From assembly GCA_021789815.1 (NCBI GenBank), contig JAJYIZ010000002.1, positions 1-55,985 on the forward strand: DNA of 55,985 bases. Reading direction: 5' to 3'. Within the stretch, counting starts at the first letter, position 1. Each line of letters starts with the position of its first letter. Shown one piece after another: positions 25,054 through 32,283 of this stretch. A program made the translations under genes and the position numbers. This DNA comes from Microcaldota archaeon. Its GTDB lineage: Archaea; Micrarchaeota; Micrarchaeia; Micrarchaeales; Micrarchaeaceae. A model generated the notes under the pieces. The model searched no databases. It was not told the DNA's origin and saw only the letters and a program-made list of their open reading frames with translations.

Positions 25054-26847
25054 TCAGTCTGATGCGAGAACAGATGCGTCTGTATCAATGGGTTCTAGGA
25101 GTTCTTCCGAATCAGGATCAAGTACAGCTTTGGGAGCAAGGTTCTTGGAAGGCTCTGAAAGACTATTAAGAGGAAGATCTTCAAGGTTCTCAGATGGTGG
25201 TTCTGCAGGGGGCGCGTATCTTGAGGGATCCGGAAGTGGAGATGCGCAGTTTGCTGCTGGGGAGATGTGACCGCTGAAACTTTTTAGGTCTTCTATGTTG
25301 AGTACCATGGTCTTGTCCTTCTCGAAGTAGCTCTTGTAGAAACCAAAGGCCCTGCTGTTCACAAATACAATCGTTTGTGGATACTCTTTGGAGCGGGCAT
25401 CAAGCATCTTTGATGTGCTCCTGTAGCTCTTCCTGCCGGTTTCATATTCTATGGCAGTCTTAACTCCGCGTATGTACGCGACTATGTCAGGGCCTTGAGA
25501 ATTATTCAATATGAAATGCCTTATCCTGAGTTCAGACAGCCTATCTGAAACCCTGTTTACGCAATCATAATGTTCCGCACTTTGGAAACTCCTTTTCTTT
25601 TCATTATCTGTGTTCGTTTTCTGGGCTGGTGCCTCTGGGCCTGCAGCTTCGACTACCTGTTTCGCTGTTGGGGTAGTAACCACAATTGGCTCTTTCATTC
25701 TGCCTGTCACAACAAGGGCTTCGTTCTGTTTGAGTTCGCGAAGCTTGCTTCTAACAAGGCTCCTTCTCTGCTCTTCGCCGCCAGACATGGCGCTCGCTAT
25801 GTAGTTGACCTCAGATGGGTCCCTGGAATAGAATGATATCAGGGTAGAAGCGTTGGCCAGTACCTGCCTGTCTAGGTTGCCGGTTATATGTGTAGCTATT
25901 ACTACACCGGAGCCGTATTTTCTGCCCTCTTCGACCATGCTCCTTACAGAGTTGTAGCCCGCCTGTGAGTTAAGCAGGAACTGGGCCTCGTCTATCATTA
26001 TGAAGAGCCTGAGACCTTTCTCCCTTTCCATTCCTTTCATTGATGTGTATATGCGCTTTAGGAGCTCGTGTATGTAGATTACACGTGCTTCTGTGCTCTT
26101 CAGCCCTGCGAGAGAGAAGGAGCTTATGCCCTCTTTCAGCCCTTCCACAGACACCGTGTTTGAATTGAACGCGCTGTTGTTCAGCAACGATATTTTCTCC
26201 TTGAGGTGCTGCAGCGTGTTGGTCTCTGCCGCACTCCTCGAGTTCTTTATGAATATGTTCAGTTCTTTTAGCAGATCGCTCATCGTCGGCTGCCTTTTCT
26301 GCACACCTTTCATTTCGAGTTTCCTATATGTGTAACGCAGACAGGCGCCTAGCTTTGTTGCCTGTATATAACCCAAAGAGTATACGTTCTTTAGTAGGGA
26401 GACCAGCTCCGATATCCTGTCTTCTTTAGATAGCCCATTCAGCTCGAGTATGTTTATACCGGTATTAGCGCAATCGTATACCCGACCGTTCAGGCTCCTT
26501 ACAATCTTCTCGTGCTCGTTATGCGCATCGAAAACTATAGCTGAGATTCCCATTCCTTTTATGTCAGCCAGTATGGACTTGAAAAGCGTGCTCTTTCCGT
26601 ATCCACTCATTCCAACTATTATCATGTGGGGATTTGGCTCTCTGTTTGGATTTATCCTGATCTCTTTTCTGAGCCTTCTCCATGAGACCCCGTTATAAAG
26701 TTCGGTCCGCACGCCTCTGCCTGCCTTTTTGTAAATGATCTTTCTGCGTTGTGAAAGAACCGATTGTGCCTTGCCTATTATGATCGAAGGAACACTGTCC
26801 TTCTTGAAAAACCTGATAATATCTTTTATCTTTTTTAGAAACTCTAT
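25054..26847 (-). CDS. HerA/VirB4-type ATPase fused to PD-(D/E)XK-like nuclease domain
   Basis: A P-loop DNA-pump-like ATPase. Counting from the GTG at 26712, the Walker A motif is GMSGYGKST (34-42), 'VFDAHNEHEK' follows, and the Walker B is 'LFIMIDEAQFLL'; sensor segment 'GSGVVIATHITGNLDRQVL' fits HerA/DUF87 proteins. After a linker, residues about 380-490 hold a separate alpha/beta unit with 'GPDIVAYIRGVKTAIEYETG', the D...ExE pattern of PD-(D/E)XK or replication-relaxation-type nucleases. An acidic tail ends the protein. The same frame stays open and protein-like for 52 codons above the GTG ('FLKKIKDIIRFFKKDSVPS') but holds no ATG, GTG or TTG; the ATA at 26847, about 26 bases from a TATA-like box, is a candidate start. 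It may process or translocate DNA ends, in repair, mobility or defence. Confidence 0.7.
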   Translation of the reverse strand: MEFLKKIKDIIRFFKKDSVPSIIIGKAQSVLSQRRKIIYKKAGRGVRTELYNGVSWRRLRKEIRINPNREPNPHMIIVGMSGYGKSTLFKSILADIKGMGISAIVFDAHNEHEKIVRSLNGRVYDCANTGINILELNGLSKEDRISELVSLLKNVYSLGYIQATKLGACLRYTYRKLEMKGVQKRQPTMSDLLKELNIFIKNSRSAAETNTLQHLKEKISLLNNSAFNSNTVSVEGLKEGISSFSLAGLKSTEARVIYIHELLKRIYTSMKGMEREKGLRLFIMIDEAQFLLNSQAGYNSVRSMVEEGRKYGSGVVIATHITGNLDRQVLANASTLISFYSRDPSEVNYIASAMSGGEEQRRSLVRSKLRELKQNEALVVTGRMKEPIVVTTPTAKQVVEAAGPEAPAQKTNTDNEKKRSFQSAEHYDCVNRVSDRLSELRIRHFILNNSQGPDIVAYIRGVKTAIEYETGRKSYRSTSKMLDARSKEYPQTIVFVNSRAFGFYKSYFEKDKTMVLNIEDLKSFSGHISPAANCASPLPDPSRYAPPAEPPSENLEDLPLNSLSEPSKNLAPKAVLDPDSEELLEPIDTDASVLASD

Positions 26848-26898
26848 CGTAAAACCACCTATGAACGCTTATTAATCTTGTCAACTAAGGATTAGCAT

Positions 26899-27022
26899 GC
26901 CAGGGTGGCAGAATCTGGTATCGCGCCGGTCTTGAGTTTACAAAACGTCAAGAGCTGATCTGTGATGCAAAAAGAAAACCGGTGTCCGCAAGGACTTTAG
27001 GGTTCAAATCCCTACCCTGGCG
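26899..27022 (+). tRNA. tRNA-Ser (anticodon TGA) with 40-base intron
   Basis: Acceptor GCCAGGG (26899-26905) pairs with CCCTGGC (27015-27021), discriminator G. The T arm is TAGGG-TTCAAAT-CCCTA and there is a long variable arm (GTCC-GCAA-GGAC), so this is a class II tRNA. The anticodon stem CCGGT (26926-26930) pairs only with ACCGG at 26978-26982, leaving an intron at about 26937-26976 after position 37. The joined loop is CTTGAGA with anticodon TGA (26933-26935). TCAAGA inside the intron is complementary to the anticodon loop, as in bulge-helix-bulge precursors. G at position 73 and the anticodon both say serine rather than leucine. No encoded CCA. Confidence 0.88.
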
Positions 27023-27034
27023 ATTCAGAAAAAG

Positions 27035-29794: not shown

Positions 29795-30085
29795 ATGATC
29801 TCAGGCTTTATGGGCTTCTACTCTGCGCGGCAGAGAGGCGGCCTTCTTTTCTATGTATCGGCGGCCATTGCCTCCGCCCTTTTTCTTGTGCTTGGCACGC
29901 TATATGCATTTTATTACATAGGATTAGATATACCTGCGCTTCCATTCATTCTCATAGGTTTAATTTTTGCAGTAACAATGCTCTTTCTAAACCGCAGGCA
30001 TGAAACCACGATCACGCACAGGGCCAAAATCGCGATCTTGATGTCGCTGCTGCTATCTACGATGTCATTGTATCTGATTCTATGA
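29795..30085 (+). CDS. Small membrane protein, partner of the HerA/VirB4-type ATPase
   Basis: 96 residues, three hydrophobic helices (about 18-42, 45-65, 76-95) with a basic loop 'NRRHETTITHRAK'. Size and build resemble VirB3/PrgI-like or other small partners of DNA-translocating ATPases, but sequence identity cannot be judged. Its stop overlaps the ATPase start by four bases (ATGA), so they are translated together. Confidence 0.6.
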   Translation: MISGFMGFYSARQRGGLLFYVSAAIASALFLVLGTLYAFYYIGLDIPALPFILIGLIFAVTMLFLNRRHETTITHRAKIAILMSLLLSTMSLYLIL

Positions 30086-32283
30086 GTACATGTTGTTATG
30101 AGATCTCTTCGGTTCCAGACAAGCCTTTTGATAGGGGACTCTTCCTTGAGGTGATGGGTAGGGAGAGCTTTGCGATCGCTTATGATATGAGCAGAAGAAT
30201 GAGCTTCCTGGTTTTTGATCCTTTATCTGACAGCAGAACTCGGGTAATTAGCTCTGTCATAGCTGGCCTAGATTTCCGGAAAGGCGAGCTTGATGAATCT
30301 TCCCTTGGATTCCATATTATGTCAGCATATAGGGGTTTGGAGAGTTTTCCGCAAGCCTTCCTTTCGGATATCTTTGATGCCGGGCTAGGAGGAATCCTCT
30401 ACATGATCTTTGTTCCACAAACCGAGAAGGAGATATCGCCCGCAAGAGAATACATGGAAAGAAAGCTTAGCGGTATAAGTGTCGCGAGCGGTTATTCGGT
30501 ATCTGATTCAGGATCTGGGAAACGCACGAGCAGATCGATACAGCATCAGAGCTTTGAGAGATCCGATGAATCGAGCATGCTCAGGGAGATGCTCGAGACG
30601 CTTAACAGGTCAGTTACAGCGAATGGGTTAGCGTACAAGATAGCTTTCGCTACCACAACACCCGAACTCAAGGAGTATCTTCTTTCAAAAATGGTACTGC
30701 TTGATTCACACGCCTTTAATGGCTCTGCCGATGAACTTATCGCACACATAGAAGAGACGCGCTGCATGCCATTCGGCAGCGACTTTGCAAAGAGGCTTGT
30801 CAACTTCTATGGTAGCGTAGAGACGAGCTATACAATAGCAACATCTTATGCGAGCTCTTTGGGGGATGTCCCGCTTGGCAATTTCCTGAAAGATTCTGTA
30901 CACGAGACAAGCAATATGATAATGGTTAATAGGACGGCTCTAAACCTTGGCTTCATAATAAGCGGCCTTCCAGGATCTGGGAAGACCAGAGAGGCAATGT
31001 CCATACTCGATTCTGCAATGAGGGTTGGTAGCACTAGAGTAATAGTGATATCGCCTACCGATGAATGGGATTCTTTTGCACTATCGCATAGAATGTACCT
31101 TATCAAACTCTGCGAAGACAGTATACCGATAAACTTCTTCAGGTGCCCTAGAGGAACCGACAGGCAGAGGTTCTATGAATCGCTGGCTATGATACTTGCT
31201 TCCGCTTCTGCTGCTGGCCCATACAGGAATCCGATGGAGAAATGCATGCTCAACGCTTTCAGAAGGGTGTACAAGGAAACGGATACACCAGATCCGGTTG
31301 CTGTTTATTCTGAAATAGAGGAATCGATAGCAAGAATGCATGGAAAACGCACGAACGTTGGTATAAAATACACAAAGCATGGAGAGAATATCAAATCTTC
31401 CATGGAGAATCTTGTTGCGGTTCTGCAGATGCCGGAGTATTCTGAAAGGAGGGGCGTCTGCATAGAGGAGTTGCTTGAAGGCGGAATGGTCTTTGATATA
31501 TCTGGCGCAGGAGTAGAGACAAAAACTCACTTTTACGCTCTAATTCTGAATCAAATATATTCGGTTGCATCATCCTTAGATTCCAATGGCGATGATGATC
31601 TTAGGATTGTGATCTGCCTTGAAGAGGCTCAGATGATGCTTAGGGAGCAGAGATCGCCTGTAGTAGAGGATATGAGAAACAGGATCCAGGATTTTAGAAA
31701 GAAGGGCGTGGGGCTGATGTTGCTCGCGCATAATATAACCGATATCGATGTAGGGATACGAAGGCTCTGCCAGATGAAGATCTATCTGAAGCAGGCCTCA
31801 GACGTGGCAGAAGCGGCAGCAGGAGACCTAGTCTTTGCACATGCTGAACAAGAAGATATCTCATCAAAACTGAAGCATCTTGATTCAAGAGTGGGAGCCT
31901 TGAGCTACGTGAGCAAGGAGGGCAACGAAAAGAGAGCCCATGATTCCGTGTTTATCAAGACAAAAGAATATATGAACCTGCCTGTATCTGAGTACCAGAA
32001 TCCAGTTTTGGCTTACGCGAAGAAGAGAAGACTCGCTGCCTCAAAAAGGATAGTTTCGACTATTGTAGTCCGCGCGAGCGATGATGTTCTTGGGCTGCGG
32101 ATAATGTATCTGGGTGAAGAGATTGGTCAATATGTATTTGGAGAGGGTCCAAAGGTTGTATCTGGAGAGCTGATAGAAAGCAGAAGTTATTCCGTGGAGT
32201 TACTTGGACCTAGAGACAGAGTACTAAGAAGACTTGAGGTGGTCGCAACTCCAGAGATTGGTATAGATGCTGCAGTAAAATGA
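30082..32283 (+). CDS. HerA/VirB4-type P-loop ATPase
   Basis: 733 residues. An N-terminal alpha/beta part (1-280), then the ATPase: Walker A GLPGSGKT (295-302), 'VISPTDEW', Walker B 'IVICLEEAQMML' with E514/E515, then 'RKKGVGLMLLAHNITDIDVGIR', the sensor/arginine-finger segment of HerA-FtsK-VirB4 proteins. A beta-rich C-terminal domain (about 650-733) is added. Such ATPases are hexameric pumps for DNA or secreted substrates; a membrane partner overlaps the gene upstream. It is unlike the nuclease-fused HerA at 25054. Possible roles are DNA transfer, pilus-like secretion or defence; none can be fixed. Confidence 0.8.
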   Translation: MSTCCYEISSVPDKPFDRGLFLEVMGRESFAIAYDMSRRMSFLVFDPLSDSRTRVISSVIAGLDFRKGELDESSLGFHIMSAYRGLESFPQAFLSDIFDAGLGGILYMIFVPQTEKEISPAREYMERKLSGISVASGYSVSDSGSGKRTSRSIQHQSFERSDESSMLREMLETLNRSVTANGLAYKIAFATTTPELKEYLLSKMVLLDSHAFNGSADELIAHIEETRCMPFGSDFAKRLVNFYGSVETSYTIATSYASSLGDVPLGNFLKDSVHETSNMIMVNRTALNLGFIISGLPGSGKTREAMSILDSAMRVGSTRVIVISPTDEWDSFALSHRMYLIKLCEDSIPINFFRCPRGTDRQRFYESLAMILASASAAGPYRNPMEKCMLNAFRRVYKETDTPDPVAVYSEIEESIARMHGKRTNVGIKYTKHGENIKSSMENLVAVLQMPEYSERRGVCIEELLEGGMVFDISGAGVETKTHFYALILNQIYSVASSLDSNGDDDLRIVICLEEAQMMLREQRSPVVEDMRNRIQDFRKKGVGLMLLAHNITDIDVGIRRLCQMKIYLKQASDVAEAAAGDLVFAHAEQEDISSKLKHLDSRVGALSYVSKEGNEKRAHDSVFIKTKEYMNLPVSEYQNPVLAYAKKRRLAASKRIVSTIVVRASDDVLGLRIMYLGEEIGQYVFGEGPKVVSGELIESRSYSVELLGPRDRVLRRLEVVATPEIGIDAAVK

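Follow-up and report, generated by a model that had tools for sequence, protein, structure and literature searches.

In archaea, the motor HerA works together with the nuclease NurA, whose fold is described as that of RNase H (PMC9905601). The same paper describes archaeal conjugative elements as having no recognised relaxases and proposes that HerA-NurA makes the strand (Beltran et al., PMC9905601). Similarly, a survey of thaumarchaeal elements reports that no relaxase was found (PMC6563490). CedD is described as having a transmembrane domain and as required for DNA import in Saccharolobus (PMC11868833), and arCOG03166 is described as an AAA+ ATPase fused to an HTH and a RecB nuclease (PMC4158269).

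The gene analysed here lies in the window, that is, the whole stretch of 55,985 nucleotides under study, at 25054-26847 on the minus strand. Sequence and structure model together confirm the observation that it encodes a single chain in which a motor is followed by a predicted PD-(D/E)XK nuclease domain. This order-wide single-chain motor-nuclease is real, and it is a variant of the known motor-plus-nuclease arrangement. Its features are as follows.

25054..26847, minus strand: whole gene, 597 aa from ATA 26847 (alternative, 552 aa from GTG 26712)
25663..26667, minus strand: FtsK/HerA/VirB4-superfamily ATPase, approximately residues 61-395, by DUF87 and model matches to DndH-C, VirB4, HerA and TrwB
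26590..26613, minus strand: Walker A GMSGYGKS, residues 79-86, with G, S, G, G, K and S each conserved at 90% or more among 71 proteins
25987..26001, minus strand: Walker B IMIDE, residues 283-287, with D286 and E287 invariant in 71 proteins
25264..25578, minus strand: predicted PD-(D/E)XK nuclease domain, approximately residues 424-528, by the model of the domain alone and fold matches
25570..25575, minus strand: candidate motif I, E425-H426 (H426 invariant, E425 at 90% or more)
25486..25491, minus strand: motif II, P453-D454, invariant, opening the second strand of the model
25429..25449, minus strand: motif III, EYETGRK, residues 467-473, an ExE variant (E467, Y468, E469, T470, G471 and K473 invariant)
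25057..25260, minus strand: disordered proline- and acid-rich tail, residues 530-597, mostly at pLDDT below 50
26898..27023, plus strand: intron-containing tRNA gene, a divergent neighbour 50 bp from the ATA (ARAGORN with introns allowed, Ser-TGA)

The gene and its domains

On the minus strand, an open frame of 604 codons runs from 26868 down to the stop codon at 25054-25056. The listed ORF of 552 aa starts at GTG 26712 and misses the stretch between this codon and the in-frame ATA at 26847 (IGKA..SVL). Because that stretch is kept in relatives, and because the ATA aligns with the ATG of the close relative L003 (IEFLKKI vs MIVLKKI), the 597-aa form is preferred; on this alignment it is the likelier one, and its start codon would be rare or mis-assembled. 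The interval given in an earlier note on this DNA is probably right in its coordinates, the N-terminal stretch being conserved. The predicted model of the full-length protein has a mean pLDDT of 86.6, with the ATPase at about residues 61-395, the nuclease domain at 424-528 and the disordered tail at 530-597.

For the motor, Pfam returns DUF87 (E 4.8e-13), the T4SS-type AAA_10 and TrwB_AAD_bind, all above cut-off. Among the NCBIfam models, CedB, three VirB4-type models and CedD all rank above HerA, with bit scores far below the equivalog cut-offs (CedB, 68.6 against 700; CedD, 44.5 against 600; VirB4 CD1110, 50.7 against 325); the HerA equivalogs, at 28.0 against 800 and 20.4 against 970 bits, fall short as well. 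Over 71 aligned members, the CedD model matches 70, the CedB model 64 and four HerA models 62 to 67, and the member L046 scores 66.5 bits with CedD, 60.4 with a HerA model and 43.2 with CedB. Since these scores lie close, both over the members and in L046, the place of the motor within the superfamily is not sharp. In structural comparison, the motor of the model is matched best by DndH-C (Z 35.5, rmsd 2.6, 338 residues aligned), followed by VirB4 (Z 33.0, rmsd 3.0, 331 aligned), HerA (Z 28.5, rmsd 3.8, 318 aligned) and TrwB (Z 24.7, rmsd 3.9, 333 aligned). The HAS-barrel is absent from the Pfam matches of the window protein, PF09378 matches nothing in its own genome, and no membrane segment is seen by eye in its N-terminal region. 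A canonical HerA was rejected, the HAS-barrel and NurA both being absent. The earlier description as a HerA-type ATPase stands as far as the superfamily motor is concerned, but not for canonical HerA; in the tree the protein lies apart from the HerA of sister orders, at a support of only 90/73.

The C-terminal domain is predicted with confidence to adopt the PD-(D/E)XK nuclease fold. Modelled alone (pLDDT 90.8), it consists of a helix, three strands, a helix, a strand, a helix and a strand. The second strand begins with D454 and the third contains E467 and E469, an arrangement shared with PD-(D/E)XK enzymes. In the conservation alignment of 71 proteins, which are 27-66% identical to the window protein, the residues reported as invariant are H426, P453, D454, A465, E467, Y468, E469, T470, G471, K473, M481 and R485, and E425 is kept at 90% or more. 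Compared with the canonical motifs, E425, P453-D454 and E467 are present and conserved, ExE replaces ExK, and K473 follows. An ExE site is found in BamHI. Matches to PDB structures have weak E-values (best 0.004, none below 0.001) and Z up to 8.8; they are mostly of the restriction-endonuclease-type fold (FokI, Hjc, HindIII, Bax1, BspD6I, EcoT38I, EndoMS and Vsr), and the same lists contain an aldolase, Rpb5 and mitoribosomal chains. Four matches to a viral structure library have E-values that pass 0.001, and two of these bear the name nuclease or restriction endonuclease. By sequence, no Pfam family matches the window's own nuclease domain, and 27 domain sequences give only scattered weak Pfam matches (CoiA_nuc in 3, best 0.012; Hjc in 1); PHROGs gave no match for three nuclease-bearing queries, and a PDB sequence search with the nuclease domain returned nothing credible. 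The nuclease-like unit that had been proposed from the sequence is upheld by the domain model and by fold matches that are mostly of the expected type, albeit at weak E-values, and the acidic residues on which the proposal leaned are kept in the 71 aligned proteins.

It could be argued that the domain has no activity and serves only to bind DNA or to hold a complex together, as motif III reads ExE rather than ExK and the window's domain has no sequence match to any nuclease family. This is most improbable, however: few positions are conserved as well as the acidic residues in homologs of 27-66% identity, and the D and the last E-T-G are also kept in the T4SS-associated nuclease forms described below.

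Between the motor and the nuclease, many relatives carry an extra stretch that resembles a small winged helix by eye, whereas the window protein has a short linker in its place; weak Pfam HTH matches fall in the motor-nuclease gap of L164 and at the C-terminus of L192. In the alignment, 28 relatives have a complete C-terminus, and no tail as long as that of the window protein occurs among them (L004 is cut off, and the tail of L010 is short). The acidic tail remarked on earlier is present, but judging from the alignment it appears peculiar to the window's gene and not a feature of the family.

Distribution and chromosomal setting

The sample comprised 245 genomes of the phylum, 131 from the window's order (families of 68 and 63) and 114 from other orders of the class. 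The nuclease profile matches 121 of the 245. At E 3.6e-23 or better it matches 103 of the 131 order genomes and none of the 114 others; the 18 genomes with weaker matches (3.9e-11 to 2.5e-4) all belong to other orders of the class. With a strong match in 103 of 131 genomes, the fusion is not a chance event. Some ATPase match occurs in 60 of 60 relatives, but a paralog is included, so that the nuclease profile is the better marker of the family. Two order genomes (G123 and G224) have the ATPase part only.

NurA (PF09376) is found neither in the window's own genome nor in any of 60 closer relatives, and over the sample it occurs in 1 of 131 order genomes versus 84 of 114 genomes of other orders; the control was positive in 7 of 14. 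The only order genome with a match, G078, gives a weak one (20.5 bits) and also has the fusion. Similarly, the HAS-barrel is above cut-off in 0 of 131 order genomes versus 45 of 114. Nine order genomes have weak HAS-barrel matches, all below cut-off, and the two inspected (L131 and L132) lie, by eye, within A-type ATP-synthase subunit genes. In other orders, HerA with a HAS-barrel is recognised by eye in L183-L186, and NurA and HAS-barrel matches lie about 1 kb apart by coordinates in G082, G088, G097 and G215. From this near-absence in the order and frequency outside it, we infer that the window's order lost HerA-NurA; it has the fusion. The earlier note had remarked that no nurA lies next to the gene, and the absence proves stronger than that, extending over the genome and the order.

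On the other hand, neither the fusion nor NurA is present in 26 of the 131 genomes of the order, where ATPase matches are at paralog level (E 2.9e-19 at best). Some of these are near complete (G026, 96%; G032, 94% and one contig), and the fusion and NurA are therefore each dispensable. The complementarity of the fusion and HerA-NurA amounts to about one event, because the pattern is confined to one clade, which the Fisher values ignore. Of 60 relatives, 57 retain the Rad50 zinc hook; in the window's own genome, one lies on another contig. In the GTDB collection, a scan with a single peptide pattern, which diverged forms elsewhere would escape, confirmed 94 loci; the titles of the 80 listed are 73 Micrarchaeota/Micrarchaeaceae, 6 Marsarchaeota and 1 uncultured archaeon. 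Viral contigs scanned with the nuclease alignment, the window protein and the VirB4-nuclease L158 gave no confirmed relative by short patterns, which reach close relatives, and a virus-borne origin was rejected on these scans.

By eye, the window is ordinary chromosome, with NADH-dehydrogenase-like, mevalonate-pathway, thermosome and methionine sulfoxide reductase genes. The tRNA gene at 26898..27023 (plus strand) was missed by default ARAGORN, and its body is Leu-like by eye. A second, much diverged ATPase of the superfamily, 733 aa, is encoded at 30082-32283 on the plus strand; it matches mad8 (37.4 bits) and CedB (21.2 bits) weakly and was not placed in the tree because its branch is too long. 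Among the 80 homologous loci listed, 33 have a member of one gene cluster upstream in the same orientation, and in 19 of the 80 the distance is 75 bp or less. Its L046 copy matches AP_endonuc_2 at 1e-44 and is endonuclease IV-like by eye; L090, with a distance of 80 bp, was left out of the 19 close endonuclease IV loci, because its apparent 1052-aa fusion is by eye an over-extended frame and was rejected. The association with endonuclease IV reflects synteny shared within one branch, and the window gene is without such a neighbour.

No T4SS or transfer genes were recognised by eye near the window gene or among the recurrent neighbours of other loci, and no defence or modification genes beside the window gene; at other loci, endonuclease IV is one of the conserved neighbours inspected, none of which was recognised as a defence gene. 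These observations bear on the idea that the protein is an anti-phage effector like HerA-DUF4297, HerA-SIR2, Mads or the Dnd/Ssp systems. A PADLOC scan of the two window ATPases does give mad8 (76.5 bits) and DndH (60.0 bits) as the best models for the fusion protein, and DndH-C is its best structural match. The matched parts, however, are the shared ATPase only, and the gene is order-wide, so that a defence role is very unlikely; the earlier suggestion of a defence protein finds no support in the context read by eye, with PADLOC run on two proteins.

Transfer-type relatives of the motor and the nuclease

Outside the order, the ATPases most like that of the window are found in G082 (4.5e-63), G215 (2.4e-56), G190 (6.4e-42), G086 (1.7e-38) and G205 (3.2e-34). 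In the first two (L187 and L188) the chain ends after the motor. In the other three (L189, L176 and L190) the motor carries a MTES_1575/DUF559-like nuclease, with MTES_1575 at E 9.5e-6, 4.1e-6 and 5.4e-4, respectively, below family cut-offs. Comparing these chains with the window's, the C-terminus of the motor lineage has borne nucleases of at least two kinds, or no nuclease. The motor-nuclease gene lies 0.5 kb from a VirB4-type gene in L176 and 1.4 kb in L190, and the end of this neighbouring gene resembles the window nuclease, clearly in L176 and partially (iE 0.005) in L190. Multi-span genes accompany both motors, and L176 has a PrgI-like gene; no VirB4 was found within the 9 kb of L189. 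The nuclease-less motors of L187 (1-7483) and L188 (2-7490), of 403 and 408 aa, adjoin a frame of 1756-1758 aa and a pair of small genes, arranged alike in the two genomes. In the ATPase tree, a split with support 90/73 places the window family, these motors, L164 and L192 on one side and HerA, VirB4 and the 508-aa paralog on the other, and the corresponding split in a tree without HerA has 95/86. The fusions form two supported ATPase subclades, a pattern in line with vertical descent.

The second finding is that the nuclease type of the window is also present on archaeal VirB4-type proteins, where it forms the end of proteins of T4SS-like loci in other orders. In 20 stretches from 14 of the 18 genomes with weak matches, 21 ORFs have a near full-length match to the nuclease domain. 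Nine of them are VirB4-type nuclease proteins of 998-1138 aa (L157-L160, L165, L168, L169, L171 and L172) and four are shorter VirB4-like frames (L166, L167, L175 and L176); L164 is a membrane-anchored ATPase with the nuclease, L174 is truncated at the edge of its contig, and the remaining six are short nuclease ORFs (L161, L162 twice, L163, L170 and L173). VirB4 identity was tested for L165, the remaining VirB4-type proteins being assigned by similarity, by eye. L165 has a TraG P-loop match above cut-off (1.3e-20), PrgI and TraC matches below cut-off, and 270 bits against the CD1110 VirB4 family, whose cut-off is 325. Genes for five- to seven-span membrane proteins adjoin L165, L157 and L169, and a Cdc6-type gene lies near L157. 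In L162, only 2 bp separate the end of an integrase gene (2e-18) from the short nuclease gene that follows it, and this arrangement repeats within the stretch. The window-type and VirB4-type nuclease groups match each other at 98.7% probability (E 3e-16), a comparison that is partly circular because the second group was found with the profile of the first. Against plasmids, tblastn with L165 hit 3254 records, none of which covers 80% of the query at a single site; among the 30 matches listed, all end by residue 904, short of the nuclease. As further observations, genome G146 (L157-L163) has ten nuclease matches, which fall on VirB4-type proteins and on short proteins with a membrane anchor that neighbour integrases, and a 432-aa frame in L170 (4244-5542, plus strand) combines, by eye, a DDE-transposase-like stretch with the same nuclease domain. 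The window's own genome also has a run of six genes for multi-span membrane proteins with a VirB4-like ATPase of 508 aa behind it (L111, 1001-10077, plus strand), possibly a chromosomal T4SS-like apparatus.

These relatives raise the question of whether the window protein is itself a motor for DNA uptake or transfer, that is, a CedB/CedD-like ATPase whose T4SS-like channel is encoded elsewhere and whose nuclease nicks or trims the strand instead of a relaxase. With the window protein, the CedB, VirB4 and CedD models outrank HerA; VirB4-type proteins of other orders terminate in the same nuclease, and the nearest outside-order ATPases adjoin T4SS-like genes in L176 and L190. The archaeal conjugative elements described as without recognised relaxases (PMC9905601, PMC6563490), the L111 cluster of its own genome, and a built-in nuclease in an order without NurA would fit as well. 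Nevertheless, the protein has no N-terminal membrane segment by eye and no T4SS genes recognised next to it, the sister branch has endonuclease IV rather than transfer genes alongside, and in L046 the HerA model lies near CedD and above CedB. We consider a present-day transfer motor possible but rather unlikely.

Proposed role and comparison with known systems

The best reading is a motor-nuclease of transfer-machine kinship that is now chromosomal. The ATPase half would form a DNA-pumping ring, as expected from its superfamily, with the nuclease sitting at the C-terminal face, one per subunit, and presumably cutting the DNA being pumped. The cutting would be done by the ExE-type metal site; the conserved residues are observed, the fold is predicted, and metal-dependent cleavage is presumed. 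The ATPase belongs to a lineage whose nearest kin outside the order stand beside T4SS-like genes in two of five cases and mostly have a C-terminal nuclease of their own; in the window's order the fusion is a chromosomal gene kept where the HerA-NurA pair is missing, with the processing of ends or damage as its most likely job.

That this single-chain translocase-nuclease processes DNA ends or damaged DNA in place of HerA-NurA has about an even chance of being correct. The predicted fold and the conserved catalytic-type residues, the order-wide presence, the loss of HerA-NurA, the kept Rad50 hook, the endonuclease IV neighbours, the ordinary chromosomal surroundings and the two supported subclades of fusions argue for it; the 26 of 131 genomes with neither system, the one-clade pattern, the restriction of the endonuclease IV link to one branch without the window gene, the motor kin pointing towards DNA transfer, the ExE motif and the weak E-values of the fold matches argue against it. 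DNA-end processing and mobility, both put forward in the earlier note, are plausible roles. In a wider scheme, which is distinctly unlikely, motor-tethered PD-(D/E)XK nucleases of Micrarchaeota would supply the DNA-processing step that archaeal DNA transfer lacks: joined to VirB4 and to a second motor, they would replace the relaxase on T4SS-like elements, while the window family would have been domesticated on the chromosome and have taken over the work of HerA-NurA.

For the source of the transferred strand in archaeal conjugation-like machines, a nuclease joined to the motor would be a concrete candidate, testable by one aspartate mutant, and the window family would provide a one-polypeptide model of motor-nuclease coupling. 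The fusion also suggests what a reduced, symbiont-type lineage uses after the loss of HerA-NurA. A literature search by title returned no earlier report of it; the superfamily survey of Iyer et al. 2004 lies outside that coverage, and priority is not established.

Compared with HerA-NurA, which occurs in sister orders of the phylum, the window protein likewise joins a superfamily motor with a nuclease. However, HerA-NurA is encoded by two genes, with an RNase H fold in NurA and an N-terminal HAS-barrel in HerA, whereas the window protein is one chain in which the barrel was not found. HerA-DUF4297, HerA-SIR2 and DndH/Ssp share with it a superfamily motor plus an effector, and their motors match its motor well in structure; their setting is defence, and in the PDB entries HerA has its effector as a separate chain, unlike the single chain described here, around which no defence context is seen. 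CedB, CedD and VirB4 supply the best NCBIfam models for the motor, and VirB4 also a close fold match (Z 33.0), but the scores are far below the equivalog cut-offs, no transfer genes lie nearby, and the C-terminal nuclease is extra. The nuclease domain shares its core topology and the order of its acidic motifs with FokI, Hjc and BspD6I, from which it differs in an identity below about 20%, in the lack of any shared sequence family found, in its ExE motif and in its fusion to a ring ATPase. Finally, arCOG03166 resembles the chains described here in having an ATPase, an HTH and a nuclease in one archaeal polypeptide, and it is set apart as an AAA+ protein by description only.
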